Source of the DNA: Desulfovibrio sp.
GTDB taxonomy: Bacteria > Desulfobacterota > Desulfovibrionia > Desulfovibrionales > Desulfovibrionaceae
Assembly: GCA_020217165.1 (NCBI GenBank)
Contig: JAIWOE010000077.1
Location: 1 to 15,714, forward strand
DNA: 15,714 nt
Reading direction: 5' to 3'
The translations under genes were made by a program, and so were the position numbers. Of this stretch, positions 156 through 11,529 are shown piece after piece (the stretch's first letter is position 1; each line of letters opens with the position of its first letter). Below the pieces are notes generated by a model that worked only from the letters and a program-made list of their open reading frames with translations, had not been told where the DNA came from and made no database searches.

Positions 156-1310
156 CTAGCCCAGCACGCGGCAGGCCAGTTCCGGCCGCACCAGGGCCGC
201 CCCGAAGAGAATGTCGTAACTCCAGCGGGTGCGCTTGTACTCGCGGGACACCTCCAGTCGCAGGGACAGGCCGCTCACGGGGTCGGTGACGGACTGGATC
301 ATGGCCCCCAACCCCTCGGCGGCATCCACCAGGGGCCGGTTGGCAAAGGCGATGGCATCCCGGTGGAAGGCCAGGTTCACGGTGTGACTGCCCAGCACGG
401 CCAGCTTCTCTCCACCCATGGTGGCCTGCCCGAGCCCCGTGGCCAGACGCACCACGCCATCGGCGCCAGGGGCGATGGTCACTGCCTCGGCCACGGCATA
501 GGTGGCGTCGTCATGCTCAATGGTCAGCAAATCCCCGGCCTTGAGGCCAAGGGCATTGGTGGTGCCGCAGGTCACGGGCAGGATGGTTTCCCCGGCCGGC
601 GTCACCGTGGCGGCCTTGAGCACCGTGGGCGTGCCGGCGGTGCCGCCCACGCTGCCGGCGGTGTGCAGGGGCACGTTCTGATCCATGAACCAGTCGAACC
701 CCAGTTTGCGGGTGATGTCGCCTTCCTGGATGGTCTCGGCGGAGCCGGCAAAGGAGGCATCCTGGAAGGCGCGCAGCATCAGGGCATTGGCTTCGGCTTC
801 GGGATCCATCACAAAGCGGCGGTCGGTCTTGGGGGCGCTGGCGGTGGAGAGCACCTTGCGGGCCGCGGTAATGACCGAGAGATCCGTGCCAAAGGGCGTG
901 GTCCCGGCGGTGCCCACGGCCTGGGAAACCCCGAGGTACAGCCCCAGCAGGTAAGCATCCACGTAGTTGGCCAGGGCCTTGATGGCCTCCGCCGCCTGCA
1001 TGGGGATGGCGCCATCCATCACGGACATCATGTCCTTGTCGGTGAGGTAGAACGGCGCCTCCCGCCACTGGTCCATGGCAATGGGCACGCTGGCGGCGGT
1101 CAAACCGTCCAGGGTGGGGGCCGTGGCGGCGGGCTCCACGGCGGCGCTGGTCATGGCCGTGGGCACGGGCACGTCGATGACGGCTCCCTTGCGGGCGGCC
1201 TCCACGCCGAAATCGGCATTCACCAGCCGGGGCATGACGGAGTGCTGTCGCAGGGTGATGACGCCCTGGGCCAAGAGCTTGGGCGTAATGGCGGACAAAT
1301 CGGTGGGCAT
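156..1310 (-). CDS. P22-like phage major capsid (coat) protein
   Basis: This 384-residue protein is read as a phage major coat protein of the P22 gp5 family (HK97 fold), the subunit of an icosahedral capsid. Its layout follows that family: a short N-terminal arm, a helical stretch around 105-130 (EAIKALANYVDAYLLGLYLG), a beta-rich section around 225-310 containing GLKAGDLLTIE that matches the place and style of the P22 insertion domain, and a following segment NLAFHRDAIAFANRPL (about 312-327) typical of these coat proteins. It is somewhat shorter than P22 gp5 (about 430). The start is supported by AAGGAG 8 bases upstream. It follows the scaffold-like gene after 36 bases on the same strand, the usual scaffold-then-coat order. 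The family call is from remembered sequence style, not a search. Confidence 0.8.
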   Translation of the reverse strand: MPTDLSAITPKLLAQGVITLRQHSVMPRLVNADFGVEAARKGAVIDVPVPTAMTSAAVEPAATAPTLDGLTAASVPIAMDQWREAPFYLTDKDMMSVMDGAIPMQAAEAIKALANYVDAYLLGLYLGVSQAVGTAGTTPFGTDLSVITAARKVLSTASAPKTDRRFVMDPEAEANALMLRAFQDASFAGSAETIQEGDITRKLGFDWFMDQNVPLHTAGSVGGTAGTPTVLKAATVTPAGETILPVTCGTTNALGLKAGDLLTIEHDDATYAVAEAVTIAPGADGVVRLATGLGQATMGGEKLAVLGSHTVNLAFHRDAIAFANRPLVDAAEGLGAMIQSVTDPVSGLSLRLEVSREYKRTRWSYDILFGAALVRPELACRVLG

Positions 1311-1346
1311 TCCGGAATCTCCTTGCGGAATAAGAGGATGATACTG

Positions 1347-1994
1347 CTAGCGGACGTTGACTTCGCCCCGGGCGATGGCTTCCAGGTTGGCGGCGAAGGC
1401 CTTGGCGTCATCCCGGGGGATGGTCAGGCCGGAACGGGACGGGCGCTCGGCATTGCCCGAGGCGCCGGACCCGGCGTGGCTGGCCCGCAGGATGGCGTCT
1501 CGGTCGGGGTAGTGCTGCATGATGTACAGCTCCAGGGCCTCCTCGGGGCTGGCCAGGCGGGCGGGATCCTCCCGGGACATGATGGCCGTGCCGTCCGGGG
1601 CGTGGGCCACGGCCGTGGGGGTGCCGTCCACGTCTTCCACCGTGAAGATGCGGCCGAAGACCTCCATGGCGATGGAGGGCGGCAGCACGGTTTTTTCACG
1701 CAGGAAGGTGGAATTCAGGATGACATTGGACACGAGCAGGGTCTTGAGCTGCTCGTCGCGGGCGGCCAGGGCGGCCTCCAGTTCCTTGATGCGACCGGCC
1801 TGGATGGATTGCTGGAGCTGGACGGCCTGCTGGGGCTGGATGGCCGTGCTGGCGGACACAGAGGCAGGCGCGGCAATGGCCTGCTGCTCCGCCGCCAGGC
1901 GCTGCTCCACCTGCTCCAGCCGAGCCAGCAGCGCCGCAAGATCCGACACAGCCGGCAGCGCGGGGGGGGCGGACATGGGGGAAAGCTCGTGCAT
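1347..1994 (-). CDS. putative phage scaffolding-type protein (DUF6651-like)
   Basis: A 215-residue soluble protein with no signal peptide or membrane segment. Residues 15-90 are Ala/Gln/Leu/Glu-rich and look like a coiled coil (ALLARLEQVEQRLAAEQQ; RIKELEAALAARDEQL). Residues 103-170 form a compact region (EVFGRIFTVEDVDG, then EEALELYIMQHYPDRDAIL) that resembles the DUF6651 proteins encoded just before P22-type coat genes. The tail is Gly/Ser-rich and ends with a short charged helix, as in scaffolds that contact coat through their C-terminus. The start at 1994 is chosen because AGGAGG (2010-2005) lies 10 bases upstream; the open frame extends further 5' but lacks a ribosome site and reads as antisense of the neighbouring gene. 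A scaffold role is inferred from position and coil content. Confidence 0.65.
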   Translation of the reverse strand: MHELSPMSAPPALPAVSDLAALLARLEQVEQRLAAEQQAIAAPASVSASTAIQPQQAVQLQQSIQAGRIKELEAALAARDEQLKTLLVSNVILNSTFLREKTVLPPSIAMEVFGRIFTVEDVDGTPTAVAHAPDGTAIMSREDPARLASPEEALELYIMQHYPDRDAILRASHAGSGASGNAERPSRSGLTIPRDDAKAFAANLEAIARGEVNVR

Positions 1995-2195: not shown

Positions 2196-3044
2196 ATGGT
2201 GTATCGTCTGGTAACCCTGGCCCTGTGCGCCGCCCTGCTCTGCGGCGGCCCGCCGCCGGCAGGCGCGGCCTTGGTCCCGCCCCTGAGTGAGACAGAAAAA
2301 CAGGCCTTTGGGGAAAACTATCTTCTGCCCTCCCCCGCCGAGGTCTTTCTGGCCCTGGAAAAGGCTGGTCCCGTGGACTGGACGGCCATGGCCAGTTTCA
2401 ACCCCCGCTACGACTATGCCGACAACGCCCAGCGCGCCCTGAACCTTGGCATTCGTGCGGCGGATGGCTTTCTGGCCATCCAGGCCCGGGACCACGACAA
2501 GCTCGGCAAGATGATCTCGGCCATCATGACCCTGGCCGAAGAGCTGCTGGTGGCCGAAACCATCCTCAACAAAGGCAAGGCCTTTGAAGACCTGGCCCGA
2601 AATGGCCAGTGGGAGGAGCTGCACGGCCAGCTGGACGCCCTGCGCGACGACGTGCTGCACGAAATGGAACGCATGGGGGACAAGGACATCGCCCTGCTTG
2701 TCTCCACGGGCGGCTGGCTGGAGGGCCTGCGCGCCACGGCCAAGACCCTGCAGGAGCATTACTCCGAACGCGCCTCCACCCTGCTCTACCAGCCGAAATT
2801 GCTGCAGTATTTCCGCACGCGCCTGAATGCCCTGCCCCAGCAGACGCGCACTACCCCGGCCGTGGCCTCCATTCTGGCCCAGCTGGACGCCATCGAGGCT
2901 TGTCTCAATGTGGGGTACCGCACGCCCATCCCCCAGGAGAACATCCGCCGTCTGGCTGCCATCAGTGAAATGCTGATCAGTGGCATCGAAGGCGGGATGA
3001 GCGACAATGGTGCATCTGGCAGCGTGGGCGGAGGGGGCTCATGA
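2196..3044 (+). CDS. exported helical periplasmic protein of the ABC operon, function unknown
   Basis: I do not recognise a family for this 282-residue protein. It begins with a signal peptide: basic MVYR, a hydrophobic core LVTLALCAALLCG, and probable cleavage after PAGA (residue 24). The Cys in the core is preceded by LL, so it is not a good lipobox. The mature part is almost all amphipathic helix (about 75-250), for example DDVLHEMERMGDKDIALL, and ends in a flexible SDNGASGSVGGGGS tail. Start choice: ATG 2196 has GGGAG 8 bases upstream and opens directly on the signal peptide; the same frame is open far upstream but is antisense to the phage-type genes. The stop overlaps the next start (ATGA at 3041-3044), implying translational coupling. 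With the next two genes it probably forms a dedicated periplasmic part of an ABC system. Confidence 0.8.
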   Translation: MVYRLVTLALCAALLCGGPPPAGAALVPPLSETEKQAFGENYLLPSPAEVFLALEKAGPVDWTAMASFNPRYDYADNAQRALNLGIRAADGFLAIQARDHDKLGKMISAIMTLAEELLVAETILNKGKAFEDLARNGQWEELHGQLDALRDDVLHEMERMGDKDIALLVSTGGWLEGLRATAKTLQEHYSERASTLLYQPKLLQYFRTRLNALPQQTRTTPAVASILAQLDAIEACLNVGYRTPIPQENIRRLAAISEMLISGIEGGMSDNGASGSVGGGGS

Positions 3045-3538
3045 AGCCGCTCCCCCTGCGTTTTTCTGGCTTGCGGTCCCTGGTCCTGACGCTGGCCCTG
3101 GCTGTGGCCCTGGCCGCCCCCCTTGCGGCCCAGGCTCCCCAGGCCATGAACACCCCCGCGTCCATTCAGGGCCGGCCCCACAACGAAGACATGCTGCGCT
3201 ACGCCTTCGCCGTGGTCCGGTCCCTCAACGAAGACGGCTTCCAGATGCGCGAGCTGCAAAACGGCCGGCTCCACAAGGGCCAGTCCTTTTACTATTCCAC
3301 CCAGCTCTCCGCCGGGGTGGAATACTATTTCTACGCCGCCGGCGATCCGGACCTTCACGCCATCGATCTGCGGCTCTACGACGAGCAGTGGCAGCTGGTG
3401 ACGGCGGACACCCGCCAGGACAAGACCGCTACCCTCCAGTACCTCATCGAATGGAGCGGCGCCTACCACCTCAAAGTGACGGTCATGGACTGCAACGATT
3501 ACGGCGCCGAGTGGTTCCTCGTCTCCGGATACAAGTAG
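3041..3538 (+). CDS. small exported beta-rich periplasmic protein of the ABC operon
   Basis: A 165-residue protein with a clear signal peptide: MKPLPLRF, a hydrophobic stretch SLVLTLALAVALAAPL, and cleavage likely near AAQA (residue 31). The mature part, from about 85 on, alternates aromatic and hydrophobic strands (GVEYYFYAAGDPDLHAIDLRLYDE, split here only as a motif description, then a QDKTATL and YHLKVTV strand). This resembles the beta-sandwich of bacterial pre-peptidase C-terminal (PPC)-like domains, which is an inference without a search. There is a single Cys (in VMDCND). GGAGGGGG just upstream of ATG 3041 is the ribosome site, lying inside the end of the preceding gene. It is followed after 21 bases by the ABC gene, so it is probably a periplasmic partner of that transporter. 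Confidence 0.8.
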   Translation: MKPLPLRFSGLRSLVLTLALAVALAAPLAAQAPQAMNTPASIQGRPHNEDMLRYAFAVVRSLNEDGFQMRELQNGRLHKGQSFYYSTQLSAGVEYYFYAAGDPDLHAIDLRLYDEQWQLVTADTRQDKTATLQYLIEWSGAYHLKVTVMDCNDYGAEWFLVSGYK

Positions 3539-3559
3539 CCGCCCGCCCGCGGGGACTGC

Positions 3560-6500
3560 ATGACGTCCACCCCCCCCTTGGTTGCTCCCGCATCCCCGGC
3601 CCCGGCCCCTTCTTCCGCCCACGTGCTGCCGGATGCCGCCACCCGTCAGGCCCTGGAAAACAGCCTGGCCATGGAGGTGCTGCGGCTCTTTGCCTTTATT
3701 GCCGGGGCCGAGGGCCCGGCCAGCGCCGTCACCGCCCAGGAGCGGGCCTTCATCGTCGGGTTTTTCGAGACCTTCTTCCCCCGTGACGTCACTGCCTTTT
3801 TCCTGGCCCGGTTTGAGGAACGCCGGCAGGAGCAGGCAGCCGCGGGAGGCGCCTCCCCTCGGGAAACCGCCGAGGCCTTTGCCCAACACCTCAACCAGCG
3901 GCTGGATTACCCGGAGAAGATCTTCTGCCTGCTCACCCTGTACGGGTTTCTGGCCTCGGAACGCACCCAGGAACTGCCCCTGCGGGCGGTGCGTTCCATG
4001 GCCGCCCTCATGCGCATCGAAAGCCGGGACCAGGCCTTCATCGAGCATCACTTCGGCCTGGCCGAGGCACCGGCCCGGGTGCTGGCCCGGTCCAACATCC
4101 TTGCCCTGAACATCACCGGCGATCCGGAAACCGCAGACGTCTACCTGCCCTTCCCCGGCCTGGACCTGGTGGTGTACAAAATCCAGACAACCTACTGCAT
4201 CCACAAGAAAAACGATCTTTACAAAGTCACGGCCGAAGGCATCAACCTGCGGCACAACTTCTCCACCCGCATTTCCCAGCACGTGGGCCTGCACATCGAG
4301 GACCACTCCCTGCGCTACCACGACCTGCTGCTGCATTTCCGCAACAAGGTCCGGCCCCTGGAAGCCTCCATGTACCTGGCCCAGCGCGGCGTGGAACTGC
4401 GCATCACCCCCGAACGGCCGGAAAACGCCCTGGCCCGGGTGGACATTCACGGCTCCCACATCGTCCTGTCCGTGCTCAACGCCGAGCATGGCGTCATTAC
4501 CCGCAACGGCCAGCCCGTGCACACCTGGCGGCACCTGACCCTCAACGACGTGGTGCACTGCAACGGCTTTCGCCTGGACCCCCGTGAGCTGTTCTACTCC
4601 GTCAGCGGCAACCAGGAAGTGGCCCTGCCCACTCCCCAGGACGACGCCGATGCGGACCAGGACGAACCGTGCCTGGTGGTGACCAACGACATCAAGGGCG
4701 ATATCTTCATCCAGGACACCCTGCCCGACAAATGGACGGCCCACCTGCTCCGGGAGGAGAACGGCTGGCGTTTCGTGCCCCTCACCTGCCCCTACCAGGC
4801 CTATGTGGACGGCCACGCCCGGGCCGGCAGCCTGTTCCTGGCTCCCGGGCAAACCCTCTTCCTCCACAACGCCTTCCTCACCCCCCAGGAAGACGGCCGC
4901 TCCGTGCGCACCCGCCTCTTCAGCTTCCGGCACCTGGTGGCGGACCGGGTGAGCTACCGCTTCGGGGATGGGGAACCCGCCCTGGACGAGATCAGTTTTT
5001 CCGTGGATTACGGGGAGATGGCCTGCATCATGGGCCCCAGCGGCTGCGGCAAGTCCACCCTGCTCAAGACCCTGTGCGGCCTGCTCACCCCGGACTCGGG
5101 AAGCGTGAAGCTGGACAGCTTTGACCTCCACCGCCAGTTTCCCCGCCTGCGGGACTACATTGGCTACGTGCCCCAGGAAGACCTGCTGCTGCCCAACCTG
5201 ACGGTGTGGGAGAATCTGTATTACCACGCCAGATTGCGGTTTCCTGAACTGCCCCGGCCCGAGGTGGAGGCCCGGCTGGAAGCCGTGCTGGCCTCCATTC
5301 GCCTGCGAGACAAGAAACACCAGCGGGTGGGCTCCCTGGAAGACGCCGTGCTTTCCGGCGGGGAGCGCAAGCGGCTGCATATCGGCCTGGAACTGCTGGC
5401 CGGGGCGGCGGTGTATTTTCTGGACGAGCCCACCTCGGGCCTGTCTTCCTCGGACTCGGACAACATCATGGAGCTCCTGGCGGACATCGCCCTGTCCGGC
5501 AAGATCGTGGTGGCCGTCATACACCAGCCAAGCTCACGAATTTACAAAAGTTTTGACAAAGCCTGCATCCTGGATCACGGCGGCCGGCTGACCTTTTTCG
5601 GCCCGCCCTCCCGGGCGCTGGAATATTTTCAGCATCATGACATCTCCCCGGAGGAAGGCCTGCCCGGCGAGGTGGAATGCCCCCACTGCAAGCGCGTGCA
5701 GCCCGAGAGCCTGCTCCAGGCCATGGAAGAAAGCCTGCGGGACATCGACGGCACCCTGCTGGGCGAGCGCAAGTATTCCCCCCTGTACTGGAAGCGCCGC
5801 TTCCGGCGCACGGTGGTGAGCTCCTGGGTACGCAGCGTGCAGTTGCCCATGCAGCATGAGCTGCCCCCGGCCCGCGTGCCCAGCAGCGCTGAACGCTGGA
5901 CCCAGTTTCGCACCCTGGCCGGCCGCACCTTCCGCCATAAAATGCGTGACCGCGCCAACCTGGGCATCACCTTCCTGGCCGCGCCCCTGCTGGCTCTGGG
6001 GGCCAGCTTCATCATGAAGTACACTCCGGGCGCGGAGTATTCCCTCTACACCAACGACCTCTTTCCCTCCTTCCTGTTTGTGGCCATCATCTCCACCCTG
6101 TTCCTCTCCCTGACCAACAGTGTGGACGAGGTCATCGGCGACGGCGCCCTCTTTTTCCGCGAACGCATGCTGCACATCCCCCGGCGCTCTTACCTGGCGG
6201 CCAAGCTTCTGGTGCTCATGTGTTTTGCTGTGGTGCAGAACGTGCTGTTCGTGCTGTCGAGTTTTGCCGTGCCGGAGGTGCGGGAGCTGTACTGGGAACA
6301 CGTGGCCGCCCTCACCTGCCTGTCCCTGTGCGGGGTGTCCCTGGGGCTGTGCATCTCCTCGGTGCCCAAACTTTCATCCCGGGCAGCCCTCAACACCGCC
6401 CCCCTGGCCCTCATCCCGCAGATCATCCTGGGCGGCGCCCTCATTGAGTACGAGCGCATGAACCGAGACCTGCGCTTTTCCGACGCCTCCCCCATCCCGG

Positions 6501-7045
6501 AAATCTGCCAGATCATGCCCTCCCGCTGGGCCTACGAAGGCCTGGTGGTGATGCAGGAGACCCTCAACAGCTACGACACCACCCACGACGCCATGGCCGC
6601 CGCCCTCAAGGCCTTCAAATACAAGCGGGAATCCCTCATCCAAAGCCGGGGTGAAGCCTGGTATGCTGCCCACGAAGCCCAGATGCAGCAGGAGTTGGAG
6701 CATTTCCGTCAGGCCCGCAAGCATCGCTATGGCAACAAGAACATCCACGACGCCGTGAACTTGGGCGAACAACGCCTCAAGGACCTGGACGCCGCAGGAC
6801 GAGCCGACGCCGCCCTTCCGCTCTTCGTACGCACCAAGCCCGTGCCGGGCTGGCTGGGCTGGCTGCCGGGCATGGCCCAGGCGCGCATTTCCACTCCCGT
6901 TTACAATATGGCGGTGTTGCTGCTTTTTTCCGGCATCCTCCAACTGATGACCCTGGGCCTCCTGCACTGGCGCGAGGCGCTGCTTGCCGGTCGCTGGCGG
7001 CCTTCGCGGGCCTTGCTGGGATGGCGCAGGCGGGGGCAGAACTAG
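3560..7045 (+). CDS. TerB-like / FHA-like / ABCG-type ABC transporter fusion (1161 aa)
   Basis: A single polypeptide carrying regulatory, ATPase and membrane parts. Residues about 30-175 are helical and resemble TerB-type domains. Two beta-rich stretches follow (about 185-345, with [17 protein letters not shown], and about 372-450, with [20 protein letters not shown]) that look like degenerate FHA modules. The ATPase (about 460-690) is complete: Walker [10 protein letters not shown] 492-500, Q-loop YVPQED, signature LSGGE 598-602, Walker B VYFLDEP 618-624, switch His 655. The linker has a CPHC pair (Cys707, Cys710). The membrane domain has six predicted helices near 800, 834, 880, 913, 943 and 1115, giving the ATPase-before-membrane order of the ABCG (White) type. 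About 150 residues separate helices 5 and 6. It would act as a homodimer in the inner membrane; the substrate is unknown. The two exported proteins encoded upstream suggest work on the periplasmic or outer envelope. GGGGA precedes the start by only 4 bases. Confidence 0.88.
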
Positions 7046-7927: not shown

Positions 7928-9145
7928 ATGAGCAATTGGCGCAAGTCCCTGCTACAATATGGCATCATCCTCTGCATGACGGCCCTATGCATTGAAGGAG
8001 CAAGCCTGATATACATCGCCTCCACCCAGGGTCGCTTTCATTATGCCACGCCGCCGTATTCCACGGCCAACGCCACCCAGTGGACCATCCCCCAAACAAG
8101 ATTACACCCCTATTTCGGCTACCTGTCCGACCTGGCCTTCTTCCCTGGCCTGCCCGGCCAGCCCGACGGCCCCCAGCCGGATGAAGCCCTGGTGGGCATC
8201 TTTGGCGGCTCCGTGGCCCAGGGGCTCTATGTCAGCCAGAATGCCACCAACATCCTGCGCGATGCCCTCCAGGCCCTGCCCCGCTTTGCTGGCAAGCGTG
8301 TGCGCATCGTCAACTTTGCCCACTCCGGCTACAAGCAGCCCCAGCAGCTCAACGTCTTCAGTTTCTACCTGGCCAACGGCATGCCCCTGGAGGTGGCCAT
8401 CCTGCTGGATGGGCTCAACGAAGTAGGCTTCAACAGCGTGAATTTTGACCATGGGCTGGACCCGTCCATGCCCATGGCCCCCGTATTTAGCGATCTGGTC
8501 CGCCAGTGCTCCGCCGGTGACCAGCTGGAGGCTTCCACCTGCCAGCTGGTGGCAGTACGGCAACGCGCCTCCCGCCTGCAGGCCCTGGCCGAGCAGACGC
8601 CCCTGGCCGCTGGGCACCTCCTGTTCGCCACCCTGGCCAAGCGCAGCCGCGCCCAGTACTGGGCCCTGAGCAAAAACCGGGAAGCCCAAAACACCACCGC
8701 CTCCCTGGTGTCCTACATTCCCGCCCCAACTTCCCCGGACCTGCGGGCTTCCCTGGAGCGCAGCGTGCAGACCTGGCGGTTCTGTAGCCTGGCCATGCTG
8801 CAGATTGCCCGGCAGGCCGGGGTGGAGTTGTTCGAGTTTGTGCAGCCCAATCAGTATTATCCCACACATCGGACCCTGACGGAAGAGGAACGCGCCATTG
8901 CCTGGAACGACAAGTCCATCCTGCTGCGCAGCCTGGAGCCGGGCTATGCCCTGTTCTTCCAGCAAATCGAGTCCCTTCGCCAGGCCGGCCTGCGGGTGTA
9001 CGACATGACCCGCGTGTTTGATGACCTGGATGAAACCATTTATGTGGACACCTGCTGCCACACCAATCTCCAGGGGTATGTGGCCATGGAGCAGTTCATT
9101 GCCGACACGGTGGCCCGGGAGTTGGGAGACACACCAGCCCCCTGA
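7928..9145 (+). CDS. membrane-anchored SGNH/GDSL-family hydrolase or acyl-transfer protein
   Basis: A 405-residue protein with one N-terminal hydrophobic anchor (about 8-32) and a periplasmic SGNH-type domain. Visible family blocks: GIFGGSVAQG with candidate nucleophile Ser95, NFAHSGYKQPQQ with Gly134, LLDGLNEV with Asn164, and YVDTCCHTNLQGY with Asp374 and His378. Such enzymes remove or transfer acyl groups on glycans or lipids. The terminal block reads D-T-C-C-H, one residue longer than the classic DxxH. The middle (about 175-280) is helical and could be a lid. Start: GAAGGA 8 bases before ATG 7928. It stands alone, with a decayed gene upstream and a c-di-GMP enzyme 92 bases downstream. Substrate is not predictable; a role in exopolysaccharide or envelope modification is inference. 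Confidence 0.78.
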   Translation: MSNWRKSLLQYGIILCMTALCIEGASLIYIASTQGRFHYATPPYSTANATQWTIPQTRLHPYFGYLSDLAFFPGLPGQPDGPQPDEALVGIFGGSVAQGLYVSQNATNILRDALQALPRFAGKRVRIVNFAHSGYKQPQQLNVFSFYLANGMPLEVAILLDGLNEVGFNSVNFDHGLDPSMPMAPVFSDLVRQCSAGDQLEASTCQLVAVRQRASRLQALAEQTPLAAGHLLFATLAKRSRAQYWALSKNREAQNTTASLVSYIPAPTSPDLRASLERSVQTWRFCSLAMLQIARQAGVELFEFVQPNQYYPTHRTLTEEERAIAWNDKSILLRSLEPGYALFFQQIESLRQAGLRVYDMTRVFDDLDETIYVDTCCHTNLQGYVAMEQFIADTVARELGDTPAP

Positions 9146-9237: not shown

Positions 9238-11529
9238 ATGCCGCCACTGTTGACGGACCTGCTCCTGGTGCTCCTGGGCGCCGCCGTGACCCTGGGGGGC
9301 GTCGGGGTTGTTCGCCTGTTGCGCGCCCGCCTGGCTACCCACCCGGCGCACCGGCCAGCCTCGCCTGAACCCGCGCCTGAGCCCACACCGGAGCTGGAAG
9401 CCCCCCCCACCCCATCCGCCCCATCCGCCTCCCCCGCTCCCTGCCCCGCCGAGGCCCTCTTCCACGAACTGCCACATCCCCTGCTGCTCCTGAACGCCCA
9501 GGACCAGATTCTGCTGACCAATTCCGCCGCCGCCACGCTGCTTCAAGGGGTCGAGAACTTCAGGGATGGCGACGAGGCCCTGCGCCCATTTCCCTTCGCT
9601 CTGCCAGCCCCGGGCACCGAGCTGGAACTGTCCCTGCCCCGCCAGGAGCAATCCTCCCTGGCTTCAATGCCCCCCCCGCCCCCCCTGGCCGTGACGGTCC
9701 GCCGCACCGCCCTGTTTTGGAGGGACGAGCCAGCCTGGCTCGTGTCCTTGCAAGAGCAGTCGGCCCTGCACGCCTGCCGTCAGGCCCTGGAGGACTGCTC
9801 CCTGCGCTTCCACGTGCTGGCGGACCACGCCTGCGACTGGGAAAGCTGGCTGCTGCCCGGCGGGGAGTTTGCCTACGTCAGCCCGTCCTGCGAGCGCCTC
9901 ACGGGGTATACGCCGGAATACTTCCTGAAGGATCCACTGTTTATCCAACAGATTGTGGAGGAGGAGGACCTGCAGGGCTGGAAGGACTTCATGCACGCAG
10001 CCGTCACCGCCTCCCCTCCGGGAGACACCCAGCACCTGGACTTCCGCCTGCGGCGCAAGAACGGCCGGCAAGTGTGGGTTTCCCTGGCCATCTGCCCGGT
10101 GTTCGCCGCCGATGGCGCGTTGCTGGGCCTGCGCATGTCTGCCCGGGACATTACCTCCCGCAAGCAGGTGGAGCTGGAGCTGCACCGCCAGAACCTGCAC
10201 GACCCCCTCACCGGCCTGCCCAACCGTACCCTCTTTCTGGACCGGCTGGAACTGGCCCGCATGCGCGCCTCCCGACGCAGCGACTATTTTTTCGCCCTTT
10301 GCTTTCTGGATCTGGACCGCTTCAAGACCATTAACGATTCCCTGGGCCACACTGCCGGGGACAAGGTCCTCGTGGAAGTGACCCGCCGCATTCTGGACAG
10401 CGTCCGCACCCTGGACACGGTCTCGCGCTTTGGCGGGGACGAATACGCCATCCTGCTGGAGGAACTGGTCTCCCCCCGCGGTGCCGTGCAGATAGTCAAA
10501 CGCATCCGCCAGCTCATCAGCGAACCCCTGGCGGTAAATGGCACGGAACTGCGCATCACGGCCTCCATGGGCGTGGTGCTCTCGCCCATGGACAACCTGC
10601 CCGCCGAGTTACTCCTGCGCAACGCCAACATCGCCCTCCACGCCGCCAAGGAACAGGGCCGGGACTGCTTCAAGGTCTTCACCAACAAGATGCTGGATCA
10701 GGCCGTCCTGCTCATGACCATGGAGCAGGAGATGCGCCGCGGCGTGCAGGCAGACGAATTCTTTTTGATGTTCCAGCCCTTTGTAGACCTCAACTCCAAC
10801 ACGTTGGTGGGTTTTGAGGCCCTGGTGCGCTGGCGGCATCCCACCCGGGGCCTCATGCCGCCCGGCGCCTTTATCGGCCTGGCCGAGGAGACCGGCGCCA
10901 TCATCGACCTCGGCACCCTGGTGCTGCAGAAGGCCTGCGCCGCCTGGGTGGCCTGGGCCGAGCAGTGGCCCGTGGTTCGCAACACCCTGATGAGCGTGAA
11001 TATTTCCGGGCGCCAGTTCTCGCAGTTCGGATTTCTGGATTCCATCCGCGCCGTGCTGGACAAAACCGGCATGCCCCCCGAGCGGCTCAAGCTGGAAATC
11101 ACCGAAACAGCCATCATGGAAGACGCCGAATCCTCTGCGGAAAAACTCAACCGCATCAAGGAGATGGGCATAGCTCTTTCCATTGACGATTTTGGCACCG
11201 GCTACTCCTCCATGAGCTACCTGCAGCGCTTTCCTCTGGACAACCTCAAGATAGACCTGAGCTTCATCCGGCTCATGCACGTGTCGCAGGAGAACATGGA
11301 AATCGTACGGGCCATCATCAACCTGGCCCACACCCTGGGTATGCAGGTGGTGGCTGAAGGCGTGGAGGACGAGACCCAGCGCCGCACCCTGCAGGAGCTG
11401 CACTGCGAATTTGGCCAGGGCTACTTTTTTGCCCGTCCCATGGCCGATGCCGACCTGCGCGCCTTCCTGGACGGCCTGGATCAGGACCACCCGGTGGTCT
11501 CGCCACCCTCCCTGACTTTCGCCGGCTAG
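9238..11529 (+). CDS. membrane-bound PAS-GGDEF-EAL c-di-GMP synthase/phosphodiesterase
   Basis: A 763-residue signalling protein. A hydrophobic N-terminal anchor (about 3-28, LLTDLLLVLLGAAVTLGGVG) is followed by a Pro/Ala-rich linker, a weak first PAS-like region (about 70-170) and a clear PAS-PAC (about 190-312, ending MSARDITSRKQVE). The GGDEF domain (about 315-480) has GGDEY at 399-403 and an RTLD inhibitory-site motif five residues before it. The EAL domain (about 490-750) keeps EAL 527-529, NIS with Asn588, ITET with Glu623, DDFGTG with Asp650-Asp651, Lys671, EGVE with Glu707, and Gln727 of GQGYFF. Both activities are therefore plausible: c-di-GMP synthesis from GTP and hydrolysis to pGpG, with the PAS input setting the balance. 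ATG 9238 is preferred over TTG 9172 because it opens directly on the anchor. The ribosome site is weak (GGGACGGG). Confidence 0.92.
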   Translation: MPPLLTDLLLVLLGAAVTLGGVGVVRLLRARLATHPAHRPASPEPAPEPTPELEAPPTPSAPSASPAPCPAEALFHELPHPLLLLNAQDQILLTNSAAATLLQGVENFRDGDEALRPFPFALPAPGTELELSLPRQEQSSLASMPPPPPLAVTVRRTALFWRDEPAWLVSLQEQSALHACRQALEDCSLRFHVLADHACDWESWLLPGGEFAYVSPSCERLTGYTPEYFLKDPLFIQQIVEEEDLQGWKDFMHAAVTASPPGDTQHLDFRLRRKNGRQVWVSLAICPVFAADGALLGLRMSARDITSRKQVELELHRQNLHDPLTGLPNRTLFLDRLELARMRASRRSDYFFALCFLDLDRFKTINDSLGHTAGDKVLVEVTRRILDSVRTLDTVSRFGGDEYAILLEELVSPRGAVQIVKRIRQLISEPLAVNGTELRITASMGVVLSPMDNLPAELLLRNANIALHAAKEQGRDCFKVFTNKMLDQAVLLMTMEQEMRRGVQADEFFLMFQPFVDLNSNTLVGFEALVRWRHPTRGLMPPGAFIGLAEETGAIIDLGTLVLQKACAAWVAWAEQWPVVRNTLMSVNISGRQFSQFGFLDSIRAVLDKTGMPPERLKLEITETAIMEDAESSAEKLNRIKEMGIALSIDDFGTGYSSMSYLQRFPLDNLKIDLSFIRLMHVSQENMEIVRAIINLAHTLGMQVVAEGVEDETQRRTLQELHCEFGQGYFFARPMADADLRAFLDGLDQDHPVVSPPSLTFAG

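Follow-up and report, generated by a model that had tools for sequence, protein, structure and literature searches.

A three-gene ABCG transporter unit with a TerB-like and FHA-like head in Desulfovibrionaceae and Bacteroidota, and its possible control by partner-switch regulators

Two genes for exported proteins, g1 and g2, and a gene for an ABCG half-transporter with a TerB-like domain and three FHA-like lobes at its N-terminus form a unit whose anatomy and co-conservation we regard as near certain. The unit lies in a 15,714-nucleotide stretch of DNA from Desulfovibrio sp. (the window; GenBank GCA_020217165.1, JAIWOE010000077.1), which is contig C218 of a 2.96-Mb, 340-contig assembly that is 87% complete. 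Regulator genes of the partner-switch type adjoin the unit in relatives from two phyla, and a full mechanism in which g1, g2 and the ABC protein act as one switch-controlled export unit has, in our estimate, an even chance of being right.

Gene layout and protein domains

All features of the unit are on the + strand. The first gene, g1 (2196..3044; ATG at 2196, stop ending at 3044), codes for an exported all-helical protein of 282 aa. It overlaps by the bases ATGA with g2 (3041..3538; ATG at 3041, stop ending at 3538), whose exported product of 165 aa is probably beta-rich by eye. The ABC gene follows after 21 bases (3560..7045; ATG at 3560, stop ending at 7045) and codes for a predicted TerB-FHA-FHA-FHA-ABCG half-transporter of 1161 aa. 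An earlier sequence-only reading had claimed this coupled pair and spacing, which our ORF calls reproduced at these coordinates, as well as two signal peptides, which the hydrophobic N-terminal stretches of g1 and g2 fit on hydropathy. The AlphaFold2 (AF2) model of g1 is all helical (pLDDT 83.8, pTM 0.77), and structure comparison gave no clear solved relative or known fold for it. For g2, no convincing Pfam family was found in 21 members and no known fold by sequence.

Some other genes around the unit were also observed. A P22-like coat protein gene and a scaffold-like gene are divergent from g1 in four genomes of two genera (window 156-1994, - strand; L058 6288-7991; L065 11286-13219; L066 11645-13676). 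The copies in the window and L065 were scanned, and those in L058 and L066 were named by matching N-terminal sequence. The window coat protein matches PF11651 (8.8e-31) and phrog_283 (6.4e-79), and L065 has a weakly tail-fibre-like gene beyond the pair. A conserved prophage remnant, domesticated head genes and a gene-transfer-agent-like locus are the candidates here. On the other side of the unit, the window codes at 7928-9145 for a protein of 405 aa that has a hydrophobic segment at its N-terminus and resembles SGNH hydrolases by eye (GGS, late His); Pfam gives nothing above cut-off for it. At 9238-11529, 2.2 kb downstream of the ABC gene, a PAS-GGDEF-EAL protein is encoded. Directly after the ABC gene, the two g11 genomes have an ORF of 151-159 aa with a hydrophobic N-terminus (L065 5818-6297, L066 6174-6629), possibly a third exported partner; Pfam gives nothing above cut-off for the L065 copy.

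In the ABC protein, Pfam places the nucleotide-binding domain core (PF00005, 4.9e-34) at residues 475-626 (4982..5437; Walker A at 492, signature at 598) and an ABC2 membrane domain with hydrophobic segments (PF01061, 6e-16) at residues 781-997 (5900..6550). This order of ATPase and ABC2 membrane domain in a single chain is that of an ABCG half-transporter. The best NCBIfam match is TIGR00955 (pigment precursor permease; 5.6e-65), with 220.1 bits against a cut-off of 736.35. Out of 47 matches to the ABC protein in the window's assembly, 1 is full-length (its own place) and 46 are partial and fall on the ATPase domain and its surroundings (within residues 394-709). A CxxC (residues 707-710; 5678..5689), located between this domain and the membrane domain, is kept in 25 of 25 aligned proteins from both phyla and could be a metal or redox site across the dimer.

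Hydropathy also shows that the last hydrophobic segment is preceded by an enlarged hydrophilic stretch (residues 963-1116; 6446..6907), which is expected to be periplasmic if the topology of ABCG transporters applies. As judged from hydropathy segments, it has about 155 residues here, about 125-165 in Desulfovibrionaceae relatives and about 225-240 in Bacteroidota relatives. The presence of this large stretch in both phyla, and the two exported partners that always accompany the transporter in the family sample, would also suit a transenvelope mechanotransmission machine, as MacB and LolCDE are. The ATP-driven movements of the membrane domain would then act on periplasmic g1 and g2 and remodel lipoproteins, peptidoglycan or polysaccharide, while nothing crosses the membrane. 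However, the best-scoring solved relatives of the ABC protein (best 60 of 566) are PDR, ABCA and ABCG substrate transporters. Also, PF01061 and other ABC2 models match the membrane domain, whereas MacB/FtsX-type models give no match to the protein at E up to 1. We consider such a machine quite improbable.

The N-terminal head

The head (460 residues) was modelled by AF2 (pLDDT 82.9, pTM 0.80) as a helical domain (residues 26-177; 3635..4090), TerB-like on the strength of PF05099 in relatives, and three beta lobes at residues 180-265, 268-355 and 371-455. These lobes resemble FHA structures in structure comparison, and on this model the head carries three FHA-like lobes, delimited here as lobe 1 (residues 180-265; 4097..4354), lobe 2 (268-355; 4361..4624) and lobe 3 (356-456; 4625..4927). 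With a limit of E 1, Pfam recognises neither TerB nor FHA nor any other family in the window's own head. Of the 10 aligned heads, 6 match PF05099 (TerB) under this limit (best 3e-7), the window protein being unmatched; the PF05099 scores in the relatives L059 and L041 are 31.2 and 26.2 bits against a curated cut-off of 24.4. PF00498 matches 1 of the 10 heads by sequence (E 0.0042). The placement of FHA folds N-terminal to the ATPase domain, which marks an FHA-headed ABCG protein, comes from the AF2 model and the structure matches. Relatives of the head by name are those of Megalodesulfovibrio gigas (92% over 92% of the head) and M. paquesii (83%). Structure prediction, FHA structure matches and the HMM check, with PF05099 in relatives, together support the TerB and FHA folds that the sequence-only reading had proposed for the N-terminal head.

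The phosphothreonine-binding residues of FHA domains are an Arg and then Ser-x-x-His. In 10 heads, pattern inspection of the columns conserved in the three lobes did not show this canonical set with normal spacing, and phosphothreonine reading by the lobes is not supported. Lobe 1 has a conserved T-R-x-S (residues 236-239), often followed by His, at another place than the canonical pattern. Degenerate lobes of this kind favour a constitutive, Rv1747-like envelope exporter, in which the TerB-FHA head would only assemble or anchor the transporter and the SiaC or STAS neighbours seen in relatives (see below) would have other targets. Foldseek gave two matches to the head at E <= 0.001, one of them the FHA tandem of EssC; this pair, reported to be without phosphothreonine-binding residues (PMC4925161), may likewise assemble or anchor.

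Co-conservation of the three genes

Searches found g1 in 10, g2 in 10 and the head in 10 of 119 Desulfovibrionaceae genomes. These are the identical 10 genomes, from 6 of 44 genera, and the three genes adjoin in each. At genus level and with kinship ignored, a given second gene would fall in the same 6 of 44 genera by chance with a probability of 1/C(44,6), or about 1.4e-7. As the same 10 of 119 genomes hold all three parts, their co-occurrence exceeds chance. The g1 and g2 counts rest on the 119 genomes and a further 169 were searched with the head profile alone; over the 288 family genomes this profile matches the same 10 and no others. The gene order is g1-g2-ABC in 9 of the 10 and ABC-g1-g2 in G014 (L067), and the ABC gene of G022 is divided between two contigs.

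The relatives of g1 comprise P0007-P0045, with 40-97% identity, and P0046-P0054, proteins of 298 aa with 29-31% local identity (E 1.3e-5 to 3.4e-4 against 5.8 billion sequences), of which P0051 is named Cyclobacteriaceae. The 298-aa proteins led to 17 Bacteroidota contigs, which were therefore picked by g1 (14 titled Cytophagales, Cyclobacteriaceae or Flammeovirgaceae, 3 only Bacteroidetes). All 17 have g2, in the order ABC-g1-g2, and homology of g2 across the two phyla, judged from sequence, is likely but weaker. Of the 17 ABC genes, 14 have an unbroken ORF of >1000 aa, and those of L045, L046 and L054 are disrupted. The Bacteroidota ABC protein has TerB (PF05099 1.1e-5 in L041); its beta region is shorter and its membrane part the same. 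Comparison of 11 proteins gives 31-35% identity between the phyla for the ATPase and membrane domains, and the head profiles also match (88.1%, E 3e-6). The Bacteroidota trio and the 10 of 119 genomes together bear out the proposal that the two exported proteins are conserved with the transporter.

It may be added that 5 Bacteroidota genomes have 3-4 TerB-headed ABC proteins each (the split gene of G411 counted once). A g1 relative is upstream at 5 of 11 paralogue loci (82-100 bits), and L072, L073, L075 and L082 have, downstream of the TerB-headed ABC gene, a small ORF whose product starts like a lipoprotein or with a hydrophobic stretch. Because the paralogue loci hold such g1 relatives or small exported-looking ORFs, an exported partner adjoining a TerB-headed transporter looks like a frequent theme. 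The ORFs of L073, L075 and L082, which follow another TerB-headed ABC subfamily, are lipoprotein-like and have 142-149 aa; the L073 ORF, the sole copy scanned, has no Pfam match.

Regulator genes next to the unit

In all 17 Bacteroidota contigs, phmmer placed a SiaC gene immediately before the ABC gene (in L054, before its fragments). PF09345 matches the five scanned SiaC proteins at 5.6e-27 to 3.3e-38, and the L046 copy is broken. In 4 of the 17 (L053, L055, L056 and L057) Pfam shows DUF6272 (SiaB-type) and SpoIIE-type phosphatase genes before SiaC; the L048 contig starts at SiaC and its upstream part is unreadable. SiaC of P. aeruginosa is reported to be phosphorylated at T68, in the peptide LLYLNTSSIK (PMC7647112). 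Of the 17 SiaC rows that can be read, 16 retain the phospho-acceptor Thr (18 rows including the paralogue L072; Pro in L048, L046 unreadable).

On the Desulfovibrionaceae side, 3 of 9 readable loci, from 2 genera, have STAS genes (PF01740, PF13466) about 60-160 bases upstream of g1 and a SpoIIE phosphatase gene nearby (L060, L061 and L063; the SpoIIE gene of L061 is encoded on the opposite strand, about 3.5 kb away from STAS). In the tenth genome, G076, the contig breaks off at g1, and the end of another contig, C159, has a SpoIIE gene and a close STAS gene, as expected if the same arrangement was cut by a contig break. In all 3 Desulfovibrionaceae STAS proteins, a serine aligns by eye with what we take to be the phosphorylation-site serine of SpoIIAA. 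SpoIIE genes are common (4-15 matches per Desulfovibrionaceae genome examined), so their presence next to the unit counts for little by itself and the STAS neighbour weighs more. Near the unit in the window, G015, G010, G051, G023 and G014, there is no STAS or SpoIIE match, and the STAS query from L060 has a single match in the window's genome, at 27% identity. Among the neighbouring genes at the window's locus the SiaC, SiaB and SpoIIE phosphatase set, complete in those 4 Bacteroidota contigs, was not found, nor was a Ser/Thr kinase gene among the window genes scanned.

Published work relates the DUF1987/SiaC family to STAS by structure and suggests that it modulates adjacent proteins, SiaC activating its neighbour SiaD (PMC8457831). 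On sequence matches, therefore, regulators of one kind are seen at the g1-g2-ABC unit in both phyla, via two different but related families, and the argument for a switch rests on this more than on the FHA fold. The adjoining SiaC/SpoIIE/DUF6272 or STAS/SpoIIE genes in relatives also speak for the regulated transporter of the sequence-only reading.

The partner-switch genes upstream in relatives would also be seen if the unit were a signalling device, where periplasmic g1 and g2 sense the envelope state and the ABC protein relays it inward to the SiaC/STAS circuit; BceAB, an ABC-type sensor, is a precedent. However, the SpoIIE phosphatases themselves contain sensor-like regions (GAF and PAS in Bacteroidota, dCache- and HAMP-like matches below cut-off in Desulfovibrionaceae) and therefore look like inputs, and we think a signalling device very improbable. 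As for the constitutive exporter, SpoIIE-SiaB-SiaC is upstream at 1 of 11 paralogue loci (L072), by which the SiaC link is confined to one subfamily of TerB-headed ABC proteins. The 10 loci missing SiaC and the window's own unit, which has no adjoining regulator, count in favour of it. Against it stand the SiaC gene directly upstream in every Bacteroidota contig and the STAS and SpoIIE pair in the other phylum, and we hold it to be unlikely.

Proposed mechanism

In the switch-controlled export that we prefer, the three genes would make up one export unit. The half-transporter would dimerise and use ATP to drive its substrate across the inner membrane, probably outward; this substrate would be an envelope molecule of hydrophobic or amphipathic character, namely a lipid, a glycolipid or a glycan precursor. 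The cytoplasmic TerB and three-FHA head may be a docking platform for a small partner-switch phosphoprotein, which would be SiaC in Bacteroidota relatives and a STAS protein in some Desulfovibrionaceae. This protein might bind the TerB/FHA head or the ATPase domain; since the canonical FHA pattern is absent, SiaC need not bind the FHA lobes. Its phosphorylation state, set by the SpoIIE-type phosphatase and the SiaB-like kinase, would switch transport. The periplasmic stretch before the last transmembrane helix would engage helical g1 and beta-rich g2, which may accept, release or pass on the substrate. We go no further than an even chance because the window is without adjoining regulator genes, its head is unrecognised by Pfam, g1 has no clear fold, 10 of 11 paralogue loci lack SiaC, and the interactions are inferred. 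It was also observed that in L059 (genome G023) a WcbI gene (PF18588, polysaccharide biosynthesis; 5810-6661) shares 4 bases with the end of the ABC gene, a single hint that points to envelope glycans as substrate.

A broader reading, to which we give rather less than an even chance, is a cross-phylum class of envelope exporters in which SiaC or STAS directly targets a head of TerB and FHA lobes, a dedicated periplasmic pair acts as acceptor, and the switch protein is exchangeable while transporter and partners stay together. If true, partner-switch phosphoregulation would gate an envelope exporter in two phyla, besides sigma factors and diguanylate cyclases, and the SiaC family would gain a second kind of target. 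It would also suggest a role for the TerB domain and give a tractable bacterial ABCG system with defined periplasmic partners.

Comparison with known systems

Literature searches did not turn up a name for the TerB and three-FHA head, the g1/g2 pair or the SiaC/STAS neighbourhood. EssC of type VII secretion is alike in its tandem N-terminal FHA lobes, which are reported to lack phosphothreonine-binding residues (PMC4925161). It differs in being an FtsK/SpoIIIE-type ATPase and no ABC transporter.

SiaABC(D) of Pseudomonas aeruginosa is alike in that a SpoIIE/PP2C phosphatase, a SiaB-type kinase and SiaC stand in a row before the presumed target, as in 4 of 17 Bacteroidota contigs. Its target is a diguanylate cyclase as opposed to an ABC transporter here, and its genes are absent at the window's own locus.

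MlaFEDB is alike in having, as far as described, a STAS-type regulator of an envelope-lipid ABC transporter, and a STAS gene is upstream in 3 of 9 readable Desulfovibrionaceae loci; for L060, L061 and L063 the likeness is one of gene adjacency. The STAS protein MlaB is reported to bind the ABC ATPase MlaF, a phosphomimetic weakening the binding, and the authors state that no other PDB entry has both STAS and ABC domains (PMC7367683). MlaB on MlaF is thus a precedent for STAS control of an ABC ATPase. However, MlaFEDB is of another ABC class, the head here is of TerB/FHA type, and Pfam scans of the neighbours gave no Mla partners.

What is already known, then, is an FHA-bearing G-subfamily ABC half-transporter (PMC3908365). 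Rv1747 of Mycobacterium tuberculosis is reported to belong to these half-transporters of the G subfamily, to carry two FHA domains (FHA-FHA-ABCG) and to share an operon with the kinase PknF (PMC3908365, PMC5549992), so the earlier statement that ABCG half-transporters usually lack such heads was too strong. Rv2623 with pT237 binds FHA I of Rv1747 (PMC5549992), a precedent in which a phosphoprotein controls a transporter of the FHA-ABCG type. Rv1747 differs in its two FHA domains, of which FHA I reads phosphothreonine, and the portions of these sources available do not mention TerB or g1/g2-like partners. Its kinase is PknF, whereas a SiaB/SpoIIE circuit stands beside relatives of the window's unit.
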